42,623 bases of DNA from a virus. Under the pieces are notes generated by a model. It ran no database searches and was not told the origin of the DNA. It saw only the letters and a program-made list of their open reading frames with translations. Positions 25,569 to 35,595 of this stretch are shown here, one piece after another (positions within the stretch are counted from its first letter, which is position 1; each line of letters starts with the position of its first letter). The stretch is taken from positions 1 through 42,623 of the IMG/VR virus record IMGVR_UViG_3300023176_001920; one strand, 5' to 3'. The position numbers and the translations under genes are program-made.

Positions 25569-28103
25569 CTAATTTATTTTTTTTATACTAACAATAGTGA
25601 GTGCATTATTTATTGAATAAGAAGAATCTGAAGCTGCGTCAGAATAAAATTCTAAATAATCACCAACATTCAGCTCAACTATTATTGCACCATTTACAAC
25701 CCTTGAGGAACTGTCAACATAAGAAGAATAAATATTGTCTGCATTTACAGATGCTCCATTAGTCCTCACTTCAAATACAACATCGGTATTAATATTACTA
25801 AAGAATACTTTTGGCATGACTAAATACTCACCTTTAACTTTTGCTGTAAACCTGTAGTTAGTCGCAGTATCAAAAGAACTCGTGTTATCAACATGAGTGC
25901 CAGCTAAGGTTATTTTTGTCGGATCAGCGGTGTTTATAGGTTGCGAAGTAACATTAGGATAAGCCTTAACAACTATTTTTGTATTTATTCCACTTGCACT
26001 CACCTCTATAGGAAAATTATAAATACCACTTAAATAAGTAGTTCCTGCTATATCTATCTGAGTTGACCCTAACACTGATCCTTTAAAGGCTGTTATCACG
26101 CTACCAAAACCTGATGGTATATCAATCTTGCCTCTAACAGTATCGCACTCAATTGAACATCCTTTTGGCTGTAACTTCTGGGTACTACCACCGCCCTCAA
26201 ATATTTCAGCCATAACTTTATTATTTAAGAACTCATAACCTTGATTAACATTTTCAGTAGCTTTAAAAATGTTTTTAACATGAAGAGTATTTCCATCAAT
26301 ATTAATAGTATTGCCGGAGGTATTGCCTGAGTTGTTTAGGGTAAAGTTATAGCATTTGGCAGTATTATCCTCAAAGATTGAATCAGTGGAACCGTCGGTA
26401 CTTGTATTTTCTAATATGATGTTACCTTCGCAATGTATAATACAGCTTTCAACATTGCCTTGAAATGTGACATTTTTACCATATACACTTTGAAATACTA
26501 CTTTGTTTTTTAGATTTGCAGTGAAGGTAACATGTTCATTAGCAGTGATGTAAATTATTCTACTAGTCCCAGAGTAACTAGCTGCTTCACTTGAACTTGA
26601 TATTACATCTGTAGTCTCACCACTATTATCAGGACCCCACTCACTACCGTCCCATTTTAAAATTTGACCTGTTGTAGGCGCAGTTAGAGAAATAGGAGGA
26701 TTAAGTCTACTTACAGTATTATTAGATAATATCCAGGGGGTACTAGAATCTCCAAGAATCCCCGAACCACCTCCATCATTAACTCTTCCGCCTTCTAAAA
26801 ATTTAAAATAATTACTATCTTCTAATTCAGAATACCAAGTTCCCAAAGAGCTTATACTTTCTGCATAAAACCATTGATTATTACTAGGTTGATTAAATAT
26901 AAGTTTATTATGAGATATTGTGCCTAAAGCAACATGTATTCCACTAGTATTAATATTTGTAATAATTAAATTATTGTAAGAAAAAATACCATTAGATTTA
27001 GTATCACTGCTAGTCACTGGGTCATTAATAACACCATCTTGGTCACCAGATAACTGCCCAATCTGACCATGATTATGACTAAACTCTGAAGCAGATCCAC
27101 TTTCAGGATCCCAATCACTTAGATCTAAATTTCCTGTTATATTTACATAGTTATTAGTAAAAATACCATTGCTACTAATTTTTAATGAAGCATTACTATT
27201 ATCAGAGATAACTCTACATCTTTTTACTGTAGCTTCTATAGTTAAACTTCCAGTAGTTAAAACAAATGTAGTGTCTGATATATCATTACTTATAGTTGTA
27301 TTAGTGCTTACAGTAACTACTCTAGTAGTAGGTGTCCATTCAGTACCAGACCATTCTAAAGTATCATTTGTTGAAGGCGTAGTTGAGGAAACATTATTTA
27401 ACGTAGAAAGAACAACGTCTGAACCTATCTTTGCAGCAGTTACATTTGCATCAGCTATTTTTTCTGTAGTTACAGCTTCTCCATTTAGTTTAGCTGTAGT
27501 TACATTATAATCTGCAATCTTAGCTACAGTTACACTAGAATCAGCTATTTTAGCTGTAGTCACGTTTGCATCTGCAATCTTAGATGTAGTAATATTTGCA
27601 TCTGCAATTTTAGCCGTAGTTACATTAGCATCTTTAATATGGTTAGTGCTTACAGCTCTTAAACTATCATCAGAAGCATCATCTCTTAGTTCATCTTCGG
27701 TAATAGCATTAGTAGCAATGTCAGCAGCAATTACTGTATCGGGAGCAATATGATCAGTAGTAATTGAATTATCAGCAATCTTGTCTCCAGTAACAGCGTC
27801 ATCAGCAATCTTAACTGTAGTTACAGCACTATTTTGAATAGTATCTGTACTTACTGTAACATCTGTTTCTACGTAAGCTACTTCGTTGTTATTAACGTCT
27901 TTAAAAACAGCTCCATCATTAACCATAGTGTAGGTTACTAGCGCAGAATTTTTAATTCTGGCTCCTTGCCCTGATGTGTGATCATGATCTGCTATTACAT
28001 CAGCAAAATATTCTTTAAATTCTTGTGACCAGTTGGTTTCTCCCCTAGCTGGTATTTTTATTATGAGGGAAGTTGCGTTCCCTATATTTATAGTATTAGC
28101 CAT
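25569..28103 (-). CDS. Tail fibre with decapeptide repeats and C1q-like tip
   Basis: 844 residues. Residues 1-50 (IPARGETNWSQEFKEYF, HDHTSGQGARI) match the particle-attachment domain common at fibre N-termini. Residues ~91-230 are 10-residue repeats of NVTTAKIAD type, probably a trimeric stalk. Two 'xxxLxWxGxxWxP' linkers (LEWSGTEWTP, ILKWDGSEWGP) flank a beta-helix-like, Asn/Ser-rich part. The last ~120 residues (YRFTAKVKGEYLVMPKVFF, VNGAIIVELNVGDYLEFY) resemble a C1q/TNF-like trimeric tip, the likely receptor binder. It starts in a TAATG overlap with the 112-aa gene. Confidence 0.85.
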   Translation of the reverse strand: MANTINIGNATSLIIKIPARGETNWSQEFKEYFADVIADHDHTSGQGARIKNSALVTYTMVNDGAVFKDVNNNEVAYVETDVTVSTDTIQNSAVTTVKIADDAVTGDKIADNSITTDHIAPDTVIAADIATNAITEDELRDDASDDSLRAVSTNHIKDANVTTAKIADANITTSKIADANVTTAKIADSSVTVAKIADYNVTTAKLNGEAVTTEKIADANVTAAKIGSDVVLSTLNNVSSTTPSTNDTLEWSGTEWTPTTRVVTVSTNTTISNDISDTTFVLTTGSLTIEATVKRCRVISDNSNASLKISSNGIFTNNYVNITGNLDLSDWDPESGSASEFSHNHGQIGQLSGDQDGVINDPVTSSDTKSNGIFSYNNLIITNINTSGIHVALGTISHNKLIFNQPSNNQWFYAESISSLGTWYSELEDSNYFKFLEGGRVNDGGGSGILGDSSTPWILSNNTVSRLNPPISLTAPTTGQILKWDGSEWGPDNSGETTDVISSSSEAASYSGTSRIIYITANEHVTFTANLKNKVVFQSVYGKNVTFQGNVESCIIHCEGNIILENTSTDGSTDSIFEDNTAKCYNFTLNNSGNTSGNTINIDGNTLHVKNIFKATENVNQGYEFLNNKVMAEIFEGGGSTQKLQPKGCSIECDTVRGKIDIPSGFGSVITAFKGSVLGSTQIDIAGTTYLSGIYNFPIEVSASGINTKIVVKAYPNVTSQPINTADPTKITLAGTHVDNTSSFDTATNYRFTAKVKGEYLVMPKVFFSNINTDVVFEVRTNGASVNADNIYSSYVDSSSRVVNGAIIVELNVGDYLEFYSDAASDSSYSINNALTIVSIKKIN
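27414..27833 (-). repeat. 30-bp repeats encoding fibre decapeptides
   Basis: About 14 imperfect 30-base units encode the (N/S)(V/I)TTxKIAD(A/S) decapeptide of the fibre stalk, residues ~91-230. The units nearest the middle (residues 160-220) are the most alike, which suggests recent copying or slippage. Unit number could vary between relatives. Confidence 0.8.
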
Positions 28104-28441
28104 TATCTAGCTCTCCTAGAGTGTGAAAAGTAAACTCTTACATAAATTGTTTCTGTACCTGTGTAATCAGCTTTTACCCTTTGTAATACAAATGGATGCG
28201 ATGTGTCAGAAGCATTTAGTTCTAAATGATCTTTCTCATTAGTTCCTGCATTAGTTTTAATAGTAGCTAGTGTATGTTCTGCTGATCCTTCTCCATGAGA
28301 AGTTTTAATACCAATAGATACTTGAGGTGCTTGTGTATTTGAATCAAAACATTCAAAAACTATATTTTCAGCATTTTGAGGTAGCATGTGCCATTCCCCA
28401 TCTGTAAGGTCGATAAAATTGTAAGATACTCCGATACTCAT
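28103..28441 (-). CDS. Small virion beta protein (112 aa), possible paralogue
   Basis: Beta-rich product with a short N-terminal strand region (YNFIDLTDGEWHML) and an end FVLQRVKADYTGTETIYVRV...RRAR. The C-terminal part parallels the end of the 1664-aa protein two genes upstream (ILQYLRVKITGTG...SIYFTKRRKK), including the basic tail. It is probably a fibre-associated or particle-decorating protein. Relationship is by eye and short. Confidence 0.6.
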   Translation of the reverse strand: MSIGVSYNFIDLTDGEWHMLPQNAENIVFECFDSNTQAPQVSIGIKTSHGEGSAEHTLATIKTNAGTNEKDHLELNASDTSHPFVLQRVKADYTGTETIYVRVYFSHSRRAR

Positions 28442-28449
28442 ATATACTC

Positions 28450-28887
28450 CTAATTAAGTGTAAAGTTTAAGCTTATTGTACAGTCTCCATTAGAAGACGC
28501 TACGTCATATATTTTAAATCTAACGTACTGTAATACGCCTACATCTATAGGCTGTACATAACAGTTTTGTATAGTAGGATCACATTCTACCTTACATACT
28601 CCGCCATCTGCTAATACACAATCGCACCAGTTTACCCCATCTGGACTCATTTGTAAAGACAATTTTACAGCACATCCTAAAACAATTGCTGTAAAAATAA
28701 GTTCGTCTGCTTTTGGAGATAGTACCTGAGGTTTACTATACCTAACATACTTACCTCCATTTGGATCATTAGGATCAAAGTCAGCTAAATTAACTGCTGG
28801 CATTTCATTTCCTGCTGCGTCAGTAAGTCCCTCGGCTGATCCTGTCAATAAATTTTTAGCTAATATTAAAGCATGTGCTGATGCCAT
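28450..28887 (-). CDS. Virion beta protein with SPDGxNWC motif (145 aa)
   Basis: Residues 70-145 look like a beta-sandwich: VKLSLQMSPDGVNWCDC (74-90), several Cys (72, 88, 90, 98, 102, 109, 136), VLQYVRFKIYD (118-128) and CTISLNFTLN. The motifs SPDGxNWC and LQY(V/L)R(F/V)KI recur at opposite ends of the neighbouring 1664-aa protein. It begins one base over the latter's stop (TAATG). Probably a structural attachment or adapter subunit; no named family recognised. Confidence 0.65.
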   Translation of the reverse strand: MASAHALILAKNLLTGSAEGLTDAAGNEMPAVNLADFDPNDPNGGKYVRYSKPQVLSPKADELIFTAIVLGCAVKLSLQMSPDGVNWCDCVLADGGVCKVECDPTIQNCYVQPIDVGVLQYVRFKIYDVASSNGDCTISLNFTLN

Positions 28888-31800
28888 TATTTTTTTCTCC
28901 TCTTAGTAAAGTAAATAGAAGTTTCTGCCTTGCCTTTTCCTAAATCTACTGAGCCTGTACCAGTAATTTTAACTCTTAAATACTGAAGAATAGGTTGAGC
29001 TAGATCTTTAACATTACAAGCAGTATCTACAATATTGCTCATAACTACACTAACAAACTCTGTGATAGCTGACCCTTGTGTAGTAGTAGCTTCTTGATTT
29101 GCTAAATAAGTAGAATCTGGAGCAGTGTCTAGAAAATGAAGATCTTGAGTATCAATAGATACTGCTCTAATGTGATGATTAGGTACTCCATCTGCCCTAT
29201 CTTTAACATCATTAATATTTTCTCCACAGTCAGTGTCGGTGTCTCCCCACCTCCACCATGCTTCTAGTCCTCCTCCTGGATTTGTAGATGCATCATATCT
29301 GTCTGGATTTATGTATTGACTAGTCCCAGGATTAGCTCCAATAGCTGATGGGTCGTTTAGTGGGTATGGAATCCCTGTAGCATAAGTAGCTCCGATCCCT
29401 CTAGTACCACTTAAACCATTAGTGTTACCATATATTGTTGCAGGATATTCTGACTCAAAATTTGTTGGATCAGATCCTCCACTACTTGTCCAAAAATCCT
29501 GGCTGTGAAAAGAGGTTTCATCAATAAGTCCTTGGAAAGTCCATGGTGTGTCTGTACTTATAGGAGGTTGTAGAATAAATCCGTAAGGATTATCTTGTGT
29601 AACTCCGACAGAGGTATCTTCGTAAATATTTGTAGCTCCACCTTGAGTATGTGCTAAATATTTTTCTTCTGTACTTCCAACATATTTTAAATGTCTATTG
29701 TAAATAGGAAATCCTATATTAACATTGTTATGTGCTAAGAAAGAGTTTAATCCTCCTATATAATCTACCCCTATACTACTGTTCTGATCATTTAGCTCAA
29801 TTCCATCCATACTTAGGTTCCAGTTAAAAGCGGCTCCTATGCCTGTAGCTGTATAAGGTCCAAATTTAACATTAGAGCCTTCTGTAGTGTTTCTATAGGA
29901 AAGAACTATGTTATGCCAATTTCCATCTAAAAAGTTTACATCATAATTATCTTTTGTCTGATGACATTTCCACAAAGCAAAGTATTCTGCTTGAGACTCA
30001 AATCCGTTAAACGATAGGCAAAAGGCTGCGTCTCCACTGGCGTCTGTTACCCAAGACTCTGATACAAAATCAAAATTCTTAGTTAAAGATAAGGTCATAC
30101 CATTACCATTTATTGTGTCTTGTATTAAGGTAGCTCCGGTAGCAGGTACTACAGTAGTGCTAAGAGGGGCAGCAGTAGCACTCTTATAGATACTATCACT
30201 ACTAGTTAAAGTAGCTGAATAAGTAGCTGTAACACCTGTATCCTTATCTAGTACAAAGGTACTATCTATTTGACATTGAAGACTAGATTCACTATCATTA
30301 GCCCCATCTCCAAATCTTATCCATCTATATAAGTCAGCACTTGCTGAGTGTATAGCATAGTTATTATCATCATAAAGTTCTTGAACTTCTGCATCACTTA
30401 GTCCTTTATCCCAAGCTGTATATTCATCTATTCCATAATCAGTAGGACTAAATGGTGCGTATGTTGTATAAGCTTCATTATAAAAAGCTCCTCCGTATGT
30501 CCTAGCACAGAGAAACCCACTATTAGTAATAGCGCTGTTACTACCGAACAAATAGGCTACTCCAGTACCAATGCCATCATAAGCCTTTGGATTATTAGGG
30601 TCATCAAGATTTTCTACTTTCTGTCCATTTATGTAAAATTTTGAATTACTAAAAGTTGGGTCAGTAACAAAAGTAATCATTGTCCAGGTATCTCTATATT
30701 GAGAAGCTAAGTTTATACCTATAAATTGAGTATTATAACTAGAATTTGTTAAAAAACAAAGATTAGGAAGCCCACTAGTTCCATTAGTAGCCCAAAAAAA
30801 GTATCCCCCACTTGTACTAACATAATCACCTAATAAGGCACTAGATCCTGAAGCGTTGCTTGGATAGTAGACCCAAAAATTGTAAGTTTGGTAAGAATTT
30901 GCCGAACCATGATTATAAAAATTAAGATTAGGACTTAGTAATCCTCCATTATTTTGTTCTTCATACACTCCATAATCCAAAATACATGGTCCCTTTATAT
31001 TTTTAGTATTTGCTAAATCTTGTCCCGAATCATCTTGATACTGCAAATGATTAAATCCTACTAAATCATTTTGAGGATTTGTAGCATCATTCAATTGCCA
31101 CCAAGCTTCAATATTAGCAGGGGTTACGCTAGGTAAATTCTTTATATTACGAACATGTCCGTTACTATAAAGCTGCTTTGCTGCGTATTGATCTAAAACT
31201 TCTGAATGTATTGACCAGTTAGATAAAGAGGCATTTAACTTGGAAATATCTGTAGGAGCTGGATTTATAGCATTAGCATTATTTTCTCCATCACTTAGTA
31301 ATGTAAATCCGTTAGTTCCTTTTAAATGAGCGTCTGTAATTGAAACACTTGATTGAGCTATCTGCTCTCCATCTACATATATAGTAAATTGATTTGTACC
31401 TGAATCATTTTTAGTTAATAAAACATGATGCCAGTTGGTTCCATCATTTACATCAACATTAGCCGTAATTGTCTGTATAGTAGATCCGTCATTTAGAGTA
31501 AGTACCATTGTATTAGAGGTAACCTGCATAATCATGCCAGTGATTGCTGCTCCCTCTGTATTACTAAATAAAGTACCTGTAGCGTCAGCAGTAGTTTTAA
31601 ACCAGCCTGATATTGAAAGATTTGAAGATGTTGTAAATAAATTATTAAGAGAAGGAGAAGCACTAACATATATAGACTCAGTGTTTGCTAAAGATGATTG
31701 TTGAACTAACCAAGAAGCTGCTGCTGCTGCTGTATCTAAAGAAACTGTTGCTCCTGTAACACTATTTAGTGCTAAATCATTAGAATCTTCAAAACGTAGA

Positions 31801-33881
31801 TGAGAGTGAGGAGATCCTGTAGGATTTGTTTGAGGCTTACCAGAATTATATATAGTTAATGCATTTGCACTCTGATCTGATTTCCAAAAACAGGCATTGT
31901 CCATTTTACCTATACTTAAAAAAGAGCCTATAGAAGCGTGTGTAAAATGATTATAAGCAGCATTAGATATATTACCATACCCGATTGTTGCCTTATCAAA
32001 TATAGCCGATGTAGTAGTTAAAGTTCCTGCAAGGCTATATCCGGTTATTTCTGATCCATCTATAAAAAATCTAAGTCCTATATTACTAGATATATCTTGT
32101 GACGTAGTATTTTTACATACTAATAAATGATGCCAATTACCATCTAGAATAGATGCTCCCGGATCTGTAGATAAAGTAGCCCACTTAAACTGAAAGGCAG
32201 ATCCTCCAGCAAACCATCCTACTCTAAAATCTGTTCCTGCAAAATAAGCAGCTAGTCCTCCAAAAAAATTGCTTGATACTCCATAAGAAGTCATAAGAGC
32301 TTGTTGTGATACAGATCCTGTAGAAGGAACAGGATTTCCAGTTCCTACGTTAGTGTTACATTTAAACCATACGCCAACGCTCCACAAATTTGTAGTTAGA
32401 TCAAAGGTAGAGTCATCTTGAATAATGCCTCCCCTTGGTGCTCCTGTTCCAACTGAAGATGTTTCTACTGCGTTACCATTTTCTATAGCTCCCATACCAT
32501 TACACAAATTTTGCGTTGTTTTTTGAGGACCTGCGCTATATAAAGCATGTGAAGTAGATAGTGTCGGAATAGCGTCACTAGATGTAAATGATGAATTAGA
32601 TGCTCCTGGAAATTGATTAGTTCTACCTGAAGCTGTTATATTGTTAGAGATGGCTGCTTTGGTATCTGTACCATTGTCTCCAAATCTATACCAAGCTTGA
32701 ATATCTGGTAAAGTGGATGCATCTACAGCATTTATTCCTGTGGCGGTTGTACTGTATAAAGTAGAAAGATTTGCATCAGATACATAATCACCTATAATAA
32801 TAAATTCATCCATACGTGCTATATTACTACCAGAAGCTGCGGCAGATCCATCTGCGGCTGTAGTATAAGCAGTACCAACATTGTATGTAAAACTGTATTG
32901 AGTATTGCTTAGTCCATCTAGAACCATGGCTGTACCATCATCTCTAAATACATTTGCGGTTGCTGTTGCAGTACCATCTCCATTTAGTTTGTGTCTTTTA
33001 ATTATTAAATATGAAGAAGTCCCGTCAATAGGTGTGTAAGGAGCATTGGAGTATGCGGAGTTAAAGAGTGTACTTGTACCTCCCTCATTACTATAAGAAT
33101 AATAGTTCAGTCCTAAAAATAAGTTCGCTGCTGAAGGATTATCATAAAAACCAATACCTTTAAGAGATTGGTCTACATGATAATATTCAGGACCGAGAGC
33201 ATAACTTGAATCATACCAATACGCAATTGTGTAATCATCAAAAGGAGTTATTCCTTCGAGTACAAACGTAGAAAAATTCCACTTTTCTGCGAAAGGGTTT
33301 TGTGTGTTTACTACTGTACCTGCTCCTAATACATCGGTTAATTCAACAGCTTTTATATTTTCAAAATCGTCTATCCCTCCGTTTCTAAATAGAACAGGCG
33401 TATATGTAGAAGATGGCTGTACATCTGAATTGTACCAACCACTATAATTAAATGATTTATTTACGGCTATCATGTGATGAACAAAATCTGATCCATCTTT
33501 TCTAGCTCTTTCTTGTAGCGGATAATTACCTGAGTAATCTAATCCGTCTGATAGATTGTATTCTAGTCTACCTCTAGCAAATTTATTTCTTGTATCTCCT
33601 GATAAATCAACAGCTTTTTCATTTCCTACAATAGCTTCTGTAGTTTCACCTGATGTAGTTGTAGTAGTTTTTACTTGCGCAGGACACCAGTTTTGTCCAT
33701 CTGGACTCATCTCTAATTCTATATCTACCTGCCCACTTAAATTAGCACTACTATCTACTGTTGTAACAAGTATATGCTCTTTTGTCGAAGGGTCTAGTGA
33801 AATGGCATCAGAAGTAACTGTATCTCCAGCTTGCTTACTAGTTTCCGATGTTTTAAAAGTCTTTTTATTACTTGATGACAT
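28887..33881 (-). CDS. Giant tail-spike-like protein with LamG/ConA-like domains
   Basis: 1664 residues. At least three concanavalin/LamG-like modules can be seen: LTTNLWSVGVWFKC...GNWHHLLVCKN...RFFIDG, NLSISGWFKTTADATG...NWHHVLLTKND...YVDGEQI, and TYNFWVYYPS...WTMITFVTD...KFYINGQKV, plus a further GNWHNIVLSYRN copy. Linkers with 'ADLYRWIRFGD', 'IQAWYRFGD' and 'EAWWRWGD' recur between modules. Such domains bind sugars or proteins, so host surface recognition is likely. The N-terminus (IELEMSPDGQNWC, 54-66) and C-terminus (ILQYLRVKI...YFTKRRKK) together resemble the 145-aa neighbour, as if the modules were inserted into a small beta domain. It starts after the double terminator that follows the capsid. 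Confidence 0.8.
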   Translation of the reverse strand: MSSSNKKTFKTSETSKQAGDTVTSDAISLDPSTKEHILVTTVDSSANLSGQVDIELEMSPDGQNWCPAQVKTTTTTSGETTEAIVGNEKAVDLSGDTRNKFARGRLEYNLSDGLDYSGNYPLQERARKDGSDFVHHMIAVNKSFNYSGWYNSDVQPSSTYTPVLFRNGGIDDFENIKAVELTDVLGAGTVVNTQNPFAEKWNFSTFVLEGITPFDDYTIAYWYDSSYALGPEYYHVDQSLKGIGFYDNPSAANLFLGLNYYSYSNEGGTSTLFNSAYSNAPYTPIDGTSSYLIIKRHKLNGDGTATATANVFRDDGTAMVLDGLSNTQYSFTYNVGTAYTTAADGSAAASGSNIARMDEFIIIGDYVSDANLSTLYSTTATGINAVDASTLPDIQAWYRFGDNGTDTKAAISNNITASGRTNQFPGASNSSFTSSDAIPTLSTSHALYSAGPQKTTQNLCNGMGAIENGNAVETSSVGTGAPRGGIIQDDSTFDLTTNLWSVGVWFKCNTNVGTGNPVPSTGSVSQQALMTSYGVSSNFFGGLAAYFAGTDFRVGWFAGGSAFQFKWATLSTDPGASILDGNWHHLLVCKNTTSQDISSNIGLRFFIDGSEITGYSLAGTLTTTSAIFDKATIGYGNISNAAYNHFTHASIGSFLSIGKMDNACFWKSDQSANALTIYNSGKPQTNPTGSPHSHLRFEDSNDLALNSVTGATVSLDTAAAAASWLVQQSSLANTESIYVSASPSLNNLFTTSSNLSISGWFKTTADATGTLFSNTEGAAITGMIMQVTSNTMVLTLNDGSTIQTITANVDVNDGTNWHHVLLTKNDSGTNQFTIYVDGEQIAQSSVSITDAHLKGTNGFTLLSDGENNANAINPAPTDISKLNASLSNWSIHSEVLDQYAAKQLYSNGHVRNIKNLPSVTPANIEAWWQLNDATNPQNDLVGFNHLQYQDDSGQDLANTKNIKGPCILDYGVYEEQNNGGLLSPNLNFYNHGSANSYQTYNFWVYYPSNASGSSALLGDYVSTSGGYFFWATNGTSGLPNLCFLTNSSYNTQFIGINLASQYRDTWTMITFVTDPTFSNSKFYINGQKVENLDDPNNPKAYDGIGTGVAYLFGSNSAITNSGFLCARTYGGAFYNEAYTTYAPFSPTDYGIDEYTAWDKGLSDAEVQELYDDNNYAIHSASADLYRWIRFGDGANDSESSLQCQIDSTFVLDKDTGVTATYSATLTSSDSIYKSATAAPLSTTVVPATGATLIQDTINGNGMTLSLTKNFDFVSESWVTDASGDAAFCLSFNGFESQAEYFALWKCHQTKDNYDVNFLDGNWHNIVLSYRNTTEGSNVKFGPYTATGIGAAFNWNLSMDGIELNDQNSSIGVDYIGGLNSFLAHNNVNIGFPIYNRHLKYVGSTEEKYLAHTQGGATNIYEDTSVGVTQDNPYGFILQPPISTDTPWTFQGLIDETSFHSQDFWTSSGGSDPTNFESEYPATIYGNTNGLSGTRGIGATYATGIPYPLNDPSAIGANPGTSQYINPDRYDASTNPGGGLEAWWRWGDTDTDCGENINDVKDRADGVPNHHIRAVSIDTQDLHFLDTAPDSTYLANQEATTTQGSAITEFVSVVMSNIVDTACNVKDLAQPILQYLRVKITGTGSVDLGKGKAETSIYFTKRRKK

Positions 33882-33919: not shown

Positions 33920-34186
33920 TTAGTATTTTTCTTTTGTGTCAGATCCAATGATTAAAATATCACCTTCTGTTCCAGCCGATATAGTTACTGTATCTACTGC
34001 TGTAGCGGAAGCTGTTACACCATTTACCATTACTATTGGCATTTGTGCAAAAGGTACTTTAATTTTAATATCATTTCCAACTTTTTCTACTTGTCTTTTA
34101 TCAAGAACATCTAATAATGCACCTGCTTCAAGCTTTAGTGCGATTACTCTCATTTTTCTCTGACCTGATTTAATACTTCTTAACAT
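33920..34186 (-). CDS. Small virion protein after capsid gene (88 aa)
   Basis: A good AGGAGA site precedes the ATG. The product has a basic N-terminus (MLRSIKSGQRKMRVIALKLEAG) and beta-strands (IKIKVPFAQMPIVMVNGVT, VDTVTISAGTEGDILIIG). It lies alone between two terminators, after the major capsid gene, a place often used by head-decoration or capsid-stabilising proteins. That role is inferred from position only. Confidence 0.6.
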   Translation of the reverse strand: MLRSIKSGQRKMRVIALKLEAGALLDVLDKRQVEKVGNDIKIKVPFAQMPIVMVNGVTASATAVDTVTISAGTEGDILIIGSDTKEKY

Positions 34187-34287: not shown

Positions 34288-35595
34288 TTATACGGATAGA
34301 CCGTGAATTACGCCATGAAAACATGGATTAATGTAACACTCTAGGTATCCACCATATCTAGCTTCGTAAGAATCTTCTCCTGCTTTACGTAGGAAAACAG
34401 TTCCATCATCGTCAAACCAACCGAAGTCAGGTCTGTGGTAGATGTGAATGTGAGAATCATTTAGAAGGTAGATTCTGTCGTCTTCAACGAAACGCTCTGG
34501 GAAGATCCCAATAGGTCCGTCAACAGACATGAACTCAACACCACTAAAAGAGATGTCAGCACCAGACTTGGATTTTAGACCAGCTCTAGTATTTACTGTA
34601 TATCTTTTTTGATCTTCTAGTAGGTTAAGAATTTTTTCGTACTGCTTAAATGAAGTAACGATTAAGTTAGGAGTCTTACCACAAGCCTTCTTAACTTTTA
34701 ACATCATTTCATTTAACATGTCAGTAGAGATAGCAGCTTCTTCAGCATCTTTAACCTGAGCGTTCCATCTACGTCCTCTGTCTACTTCGTGAAGCTTAGT
34801 CTCTCCTGCTTCGTTAGAAAGAACTTTCAATCCAATTGGATCGTTGTTCTCAGAGTTTTGCATAAATAGGTCAGCAGATTGAAGGTTTCCTGAACCGTCT
34901 TCAAAGTTACCTAAAGATACTTTTGCACTATCTAGAGTGATAGTTTTTTCATCTGGATCTACTGCAATAATTTCAACACCGTCAATCTTAGTACCAGCTC
35001 CAACAGAAGCAGAAGCACTTACAGTAACATCTATAAGATCTCTTTCTTCAAAGTTAGCTTCTTTCATGTCAGCAATAGGTACTTGGATACCTTCTGATGT
35101 ACTAGTTAATTTAGCAGCTTGAGCATCAGCAGCGTCTACTGCTAGAGTAGAACCTAATTTACCAGAACCGTCATTGAAAAGAATACGAGACATGTTTCTC
35201 ATATAAGATTCAACACCTTTCTTAACTACTTCTTTTGTAGCACGTACGAAAGCACCTTCATCAGATAAAGCAGCTTTAATTGTTTCTCTGTCGATTTCTA
35301 CAACAGCGTAAACTTTTTTAGCTTTGATGATAGCTTCACTATACTTAGCTACGTTTGCTGAAGGCAATTTACCTGAACCAACACCACCAGCAAAAGACTG
35401 AGGGATTGTCAGTTGAAGTTGTTTACCTGTAAAGTTGTATGATTTTTTTACTCGTCCTAAAAGTACGTTAGCTGAGTTATATACATTTTCAGAAAGCTTC
35501 TCGTACTTAATTTTAAACAATTTGGACGCATCTGTAAGACTTAAACCTTGATCACTTAAACTCTGACCATGTCCTACGCCTAAAAATTGTGACAT
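34288..35595 (-). CDS. Major capsid protein (HK97 fold)
   Basis: 435 residues. The order of an N-terminal arm, a region with KKVYAVVEIDRETIKAALSD, a beta-rich insertion (~190-260), the helix-rich domain with STDMLNEMMLKVKKACGKTPNLIVTS, and a C-terminal DRIYLLNDSHIHIYH...EARYGGYLECYINP matches phage major capsid proteins of the HK97 fold. No ClpP-type prohead protease cleavage site is evident. It lies directly after the scaffold gene with an AAAGGAGA ribosome site and is followed by a terminator, as expected for the most expressed gene. Confidence 0.88.
   Translation of the reverse strand: MSQFLGVGHGQSLSDQGLSLTDASKLFKIKYEKLSENVYNSANVLLGRVKKSYNFTGKQLQLTIPQSFAGGVGSGKLPSANVAKYSEAIIKAKKVYAVVEIDRETIKAALSDEGAFVRATKEVVKKGVESYMRNMSRILFNDGSGKLGSTLAVDAADAQAAKLTSTSEGIQVPIADMKEANFEERDLIDVTVSASASVGAGTKIDGVEIIAVDPDEKTITLDSAKVSLGNFEDGSGNLQSADLFMQNSENNDPIGLKVLSNEAGETKLHEVDRGRRWNAQVKDAEEAAISTDMLNEMMLKVKKACGKTPNLIVTSFKQYEKILNLLEDQKRYTVNTRAGLKSKSGADISFSGVEFMSVDGPIGIFPERFVEDDRIYLLNDSHIHIYHRPDFGWFDDDGTVFLRKAGEDSYEARYGGYLECYINPCFHGVIHGLSV

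Follow-up and report, generated by a model that had tools for sequence, protein, structure and literature searches.

A giant protein of an uncultured phage with the sequence signature of a small beta-sandwich domain split by an insert of about 1,500 residues

Introduction

The complete virus record examined here (IMG/VR record IMGVR_UViG_3300023176_001920, 42,623 bases, hereafter the window) contains a gene for a protein of 1664 amino acids adjacent to a gene for a protein of only 145 amino acids, and the two products share a pair of motifs. In the larger protein, hereafter the giant, IELEMSPDGQNWC occupies residues 54-66 and ILQYLRVKI occupies residues 1631-1639, close to the opposite ends of the chain, while in the smaller protein, P0002, the corresponding motifs LSLQMSPDGVNWC and VLQYVRFKI lie at residues 76-88 and 118-126. 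An initial annotation, which had pointed out these motif pairs, proposed that a particle-binding domain had been duplicated and that one copy had been opened between two strands by LamG-like receptor-binding modules; both pairs could be located in the two open reading frames. The locus therefore raises the question of whether the two ends of the giant are parts of one small domain, and of what such a nested arrangement might do on the virion.

Gene order and features of the locus

The genes of interest are organized on the minus strand in the order terminase, portal, a 379-aa gene in scaffold position, major capsid protein, 88-aa gene and giant, followed by the 145-aa gene, the 112-aa gene, an 844-aa tail fibre, further genes and an endolysin-type protein (Table 1). 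The giant has no match in PHROG, whereas its 844-aa neighbour strongly matches tail-fibre families; the N-terminal part of this tail fibre carries long T-A-K-I-type repeats. In comparisons with cultured phages, the 145-aa protein and the compact proteins of relatives gave zero matches, the giant gave weak matches confined to its LamG regions, and the capsid protein gave very distant matches only.

Table 1. Positions of the genes, domain halves and modules discussed in the text (window coordinates unless a relative is named)
Feature	Coordinates	Strand	Evidence or remark
Major capsid protein	34288..35595	minus	phrog_14242, E 5.6e-23; syntenic landmark
88-aa protein, first gene of the hypervariable cassette	33920..34186	minus	between capsid gene and giant
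1664-aa giant, small beta-sandwich domain apparently split by a ~1500-aa insert	28887..33881	minus	profile searches, HHalign
N-terminal half of the split domain, residues 1-~85, beta1-beta5, motif 54-66	33627..33881	minus	C2 profile, HHalign
Insert, residues ~86-1605, in the beta5-beta6 loop; modular, hypervariable	29067..33626	minus	profiles, models, variation
LamG/ConA-like module, residues 496-681	31839..32396	minus	iterative HMM, E 1e-24
LamG/ConA-like module, residues 751-908 (Pfam Laminin_G_2 at 761-845)	31158..31631	minus	Pfam E 1.7e-7; HMM E 2e-38
LamG/ConA-like module, residues 998-1170	30372..30890	minus	HMM E 3e-22
LamG/ConA-like module, residues 1279-1462	29496..30047	minus	HMM E 2e-16
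C-terminal half of the split domain, residues ~1606-1664, beta6-beta9, ILQYLRVKI 1631-1639	28890..29066	minus	C2 profile, HHalign
145-aa P0002, intact domain copy (paralogue C2)	28450..28887	minus	HHalign, AlphaFold pLDDT 84
112-aa P0003, third, more diverged intact copy (paralogue C3)	28103..28441	minus	HHalign, tree
844-aa tail fibre, conventional candidate receptor-binding protein	25569..28103	minus	phrog_28766 tail fiber, E 7.5e-29
Split-gene loci in relatives	L015:11319-15886; L016 same sequence; L034:11285-13461		separate 60/61-aa gene, ribosome-binding-like site

Matches of the two termini to compact domains

The relationship between the giant and the compact proteins was assessed with three profile families from which all giants were excluded, namely C1 (n=14; the compact proteins that relatives encode at the gene position of the giant), C2 (n=15; the 145-aa protein and its relatives) and C3 (n=14; relatives of the 112-aa protein). 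An hmmsearch of these profiles over 565 open reading frames from the window and 17 relatives matched almost exclusively the four domain groups. The C2 profile recognized the window giant with an E-value of 1.5e-12 in exactly two stretches, its positions 9-76 matching residues 9-69 (domain E 2.1e-9) and its positions 91-128 matching residues 1619-1659. Across the giants, this profile matched the N-terminus with approximately its first 77 positions and, in most of them, also the C-terminus with approximately its last 45, and it never matched the middle.

Profile-to-profile alignment with HHalign, whose E-values here refer to single comparisons, gave for the N-terminal half, the C-terminal half and the joined termini 6.9e-12, 3.1e-9 and 1.5e-17 with C1; 8.5e-18, 9.6e-11 and 3.2e-25 (score 153) with C2; and 1e-9, 9e-6 and 3.6e-13 with C3. 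The joined termini scored 76-153 against the compact families, and 60 column-shuffled controls reached at most 17.6, a likeness that, at the level of sequence profiles, is far beyond chance. The two stretches are in order, do not overlap and are complementary, together spanning the compact domain; judged by these alignments, the termini of the giant are complementary halves of a domain that the 145-aa gene holds whole.

Several proposals of the initial annotation can be placed against these results. The anchor-type domain is not confined to the N-terminus, since the C2 profile matches both termini, which agrees with the proposal that both chain ends, instead of one, contribute to it. The expected correspondence of the two ends with the small protein was borne out in sequence, with an extent that had been understated: it covers residues 1-~85 and ~1606-1664 of the giant and residues 1-10 and 45-145 of the small protein, not just 70-145 of the latter. 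Likewise, duplication of the domain is supported, with three copies in the locus and not two, the product of the 112-aa gene, whose family gave the 3.6e-13 match to the joined termini, being the third.

The C2 family contains many conserved cysteines (NWCxC, CxFxC, DC, TC). A tendency of cysteines to co-occur in the two halves of the split domain was considered as evidence and dropped as too weak, because it involved one borderline case and could reflect sequence relatedness.

Content of the insert

The modules of the insert were delimited with a LamG HMM grown iteratively from the Pfam-supported module of the window itself, where the Pfam match scores 32.2 bits against a curated cut-off of 22.9. 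PF02210 is matched by 9 of 12 members of the giant family and PF13385 by 5 of the 12. LamG-like modules are confined to the insert, and protein length correlates with module number (r 0.92, 12 proteins). Profile matches to the compact domain are at the termini only, and LamG modules solely in the insert; the placement of these modules between two strands of one domain copy, as originally suggested, is supported.

Structure models and fold matches

The AlphaFold model of P0002 (pLDDT 84) is a beta-sandwich with main strands at residues 4-10, 49-51, 60-70, 74-81, ~88-91, 99-102, 108-114, 121-127 and 135-144. The halves of the giant are interrupted between the strand downstream of the SPDGxNW motif and its successor, corresponding to the loop of about seven residues LADGGVC (92-98) of P0002; in the giant, the insert takes the place of this loop, designated the beta5-beta6 loop.

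The architecture of the giant was modelled on an unchanged 1074-aa relative (L041). This AlphaFold model is weak overall (mean pLDDT 51, pTM 0.39). Confidence is good for residues 4-65, for residues 1020-1074 and for portions of two LamG stretches, but most of the chain between the two ends is poorly predicted. The terminal strands are modelled in matching order, and the confidence of both short terminal pieces, separated by a mostly unpredicted chain, suggests that they pack together. Support for the proposed joint folding of the ends is thus indirect, consisting of this model and of the homology of both halves to an intact domain. A structure search with the L041 model returned LamG or other ConA-like folds only and gave no superposition of the split domain on the compact one.

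The fold matches of P0002, moderate for a beta-sandwich, include XepA (Z 9.8), YomS (Z 9.5), and chain l1 of the Milano entry 8fwg and chain 0 of the 7-7-1 entry 9hz8 (both Z 8.4, 107 residues, rmsd 3.1), as well as many non-phage folds. The compact orthologues also weakly match phrog_9522, 'major tail protein' (E 1.5e-5).

Relatives with and without the insert

A scan with the capsid protein yielded 80 IMG/VR loci; a scan of genome contigs with the N-terminal half of the giant did not find relatives. One group of relatives carries, after the capsid gene and a conserved gene of ~110 aa, a protein of 110-121 aa with the whole domain (e.g. L054, L060, L067, L069). Other relatives carry giants of 868, 891, 1010, 1074, 1120, 1133, 1243, 1422, 1433 and 1712 aa, and in one case of at least 2063 aa, with inserts ranging from about 730 to over 1,900 aa. 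Unsplit genes contain from two (L009, L033 and others) to six (L090) LamG-like modules, and a split gene contains one. The search for relatives of differing insert size, recommended at the outset, thus recovered both insert-free forms and a graded series, and giants and uninserted orthologues share a common gene position after the capsid gene. The most economical reading is that the ancestor lacked an insert, which arose and grew later.

A tree of 56 domains resolves the split copies, C1, C2 and C3 as four clades, each with 92-96% bootstrap, so that a single insertion event is not contradicted; the split halves are conserved in 13 divergent proteins belonging to one clade.

The region downstream of the capsid gene varies in other respects. 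In L004, L025, L029 and L036, the order of paralogues is shuffled and a C3-like or C2-like gene precedes the giant, L025 carrying two C3-like copies. Proteins of 579-594 aa at the position of the giant in L059, L064 and L081, some 500 bases past the capsid gene, at first resembled a compact domain with a C-terminal tip and were excluded at an HHalign probability of 1.9%; their presence indicates that this slot seems open to different, unrelated proteins. L048 and L049 were also excluded as relatives (HHalign probability 0.6%).

The cassette is hypervariable. Between L003 and the window, the capsid protein, portal and terminase are 92%, 94% and 87% identical, compared with 44% for the 88-aa protein, and the L003 giant aligns at 46% over residues 1-196 with no further match within the 713 residues compared. 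In L008, a module of the giant (749-950) is 63% identical and is flanked by regions of 41-43%. The 88-aa gene keeps its position and the start MLRSxKSxQR in most relatives and varies as fast as the giant. Such rapid turnover is typical of host-interaction proteins.

Naturally split genes

Three contigs (L015, L016, L034) have a gene of 60 or 61 aa devoted to the C-terminal half of the domain. In L015 and L016, the giant, 1458 aa long in L015, ends with NTQDH and a stop codon, and a 60-aa open reading frame with the remainder of the domain begins eight bases on, in another frame and behind AGGA. In L034, the C-terminal half is a 61-aa open reading frame behind GAGG, separated from the N-terminal half by an unrelated 97-aa open reading frame. 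Sequencing error is unlikely, because two contigs, L015 and L016, agree in sequence at this place and the third, L034, comes from another phage. The retention of both halves in split genes suggests that one domain may still be formed from two chains. It is possible, although rather doubtful, that in these phages a large N-terminal module protein and a separately translated 60/61-residue peptide with the last strands dock the giant adhesin by strand complementation.

Proposed mechanism and rival explanations

The following scheme is proposed as a whole with a probability of roughly 0.7. A beta-sandwich of ~110 residues resembling phage capsid decoration proteins was duplicated in the phage lineage, and one copy acquired a string of lectin-like LamG modules in the loop that joins its strands 5 and 6. 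At the level of sequence, the chain begins in the small domain, exits via this loop, forms an arm of ~1500 residues with at least four LamG-like modules and returns to the domain, which the two ends presumably complete by folding together. The small domain would dock the giant on the virion, most probably on the capsid or its vertices, beside the two compact paralogues, and the looped-out arm would bind host-surface sugars. Because both ends would be buried in the anchor, modules of the loop could be gained, lost or swapped while the docking surface stayed unchanged, in line with the differences among relatives in how many modules they carry and of what content.

The particle-binding role assigned to the domain is suggested by gene order and by fold resemblance to decoration proteins of capsids. 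Anchoring to the capsid or its vertices is the leading guess, given the moderate matches of the P0002 model to chains of the 7-7-1 and Milano entries and to the XepA and YomS discs, together with the position of the genes next to the capsid gene. Its main rival keeps the same nested domain and would dock it on the tail or neck, making the giant a collar or tail appendage. The weak 'major tail protein' match of the compact orthologues points this way, as do the location of the cassette, flanked by the capsid and tail-fibre genes, and the collar protein gp13 of Milano, whose wall domain likewise harbours an inserted domain, a decorating one (PMC10491603). However, the best phage folds are those of prophage XepA and YomS and of chains from Milano neck/portal-vertex and 7-7-1 capsid entries, and in relatives the genes closely follow the capsid gene; tail or neck docking is thus considered unlikely.

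A receptor-binding role of the arm would be consistent with its LamG content and its hypervariability. The layout could also be real in a protein whose arm binds no host receptor and serves, for example, to shield or space particles or to attach them to non-host surfaces. LamG-like folds occur widely and do not always bind sugars, and a separate tail fibre exists; the latter makes the giant probably an additional adhesin. Against a role unrelated to host receptors, the fast turnover of modules relative to the conserved capsid gene fits host-interaction proteins, and we regard such a role as having only a minor share of the probability. Far less probable is that the termini are incomplete copies left over from recombination, each end serving as a separate linker or partial domain. 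The separate C-terminal gene in three contigs could be taken in this sense, and it counts against the scheme proposed above in that the domain of these relatives would need assembly from two chains or else be lost. However, the halves are complementary, do not overlap, cover the compact domain and are kept in the 13 divergent proteins of the single clade; in addition, AlphaFold is confident at both ends of L041, and both halves are retained even where the gene is split.

The split-gene versions make the co-folding of the halves directly testable. The presence of inserted and uninserted states among relatives documents a way for phages to build up a very large, exchangeable adhesin in the loop of a small structural protein while the domain is retained, providing a concrete model for the addition and swapping of host-binding modules on virions of uncultured phages.

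Comparison with known systems

No description of the nested layout of the giant was found in the literature searched, whose coverage was partial, and several systems share parts of it. In the Milano collar protein gp13, a decorating domain (residues 70-166) is inserted into a wall domain (1-69 and 167-230) (PMC10491603). As proposed for the giant, a decorating beta domain lies inside a virion-forming beta domain and both chain ends belong to the anchor; the two are likened by layout alone, and the gp13 insert is single and of ~97 residues, whereas that of the giant has ~1500 residues with several LamG modules, varies among relatives and is absent from uninserted orthologues.

Jellyroll proteins of a size similar to P0002 decorate the capsids of the Agrobacterium phages 7-7-1 and Milano, namely the 135-aa decoration protein gp002 and the minor capsid protein mCP gp10, respectively (PMC12796354, PMC10491603). 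These are compact beta jellyrolls without an insert and are only 9-10% identical to P0002; the identity of the matching chains is deduced from their length and these papers, and a capsid position of P0002 is suggested by gene order. Milano capsid proteins also feature disulfides, and the C2 family is rich in conserved cysteines. XepA and YomS of Bacillus subtilis prophages, studied as lytic-cassette proteins, form pentameric beta-sandwich discs for which possible capsid binding was suggested by the authors (PMC6834076); they are the best fold matches of P0002, yet share 11-12% identity with it and have no inserted modules.

The head adhesins T4 Hoc, T5 pb10 and N4 gp17 consist of linear, Ig-like domains, with the capsid-binding domain of Hoc at one end (PMC7602432). 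They resemble the mode proposed for the giant in being virion-bound and in presenting beta modules that bind cell-surface sugars, and differ from it in lacking nesting and in being Ig-like rather than LamG-like. Phage proteins with LamG/ConA-like domains (PF02210, PF13385) share the fold class of the insert modules, which in the giant interrupt a small structural domain at one of its loops. Nested beta domains are thus already known in phages at small scale, as in Milano gp13; the present case differs in having an insert that is large and modular, uninserted orthologues, compact paralogues and relatives with split genes.
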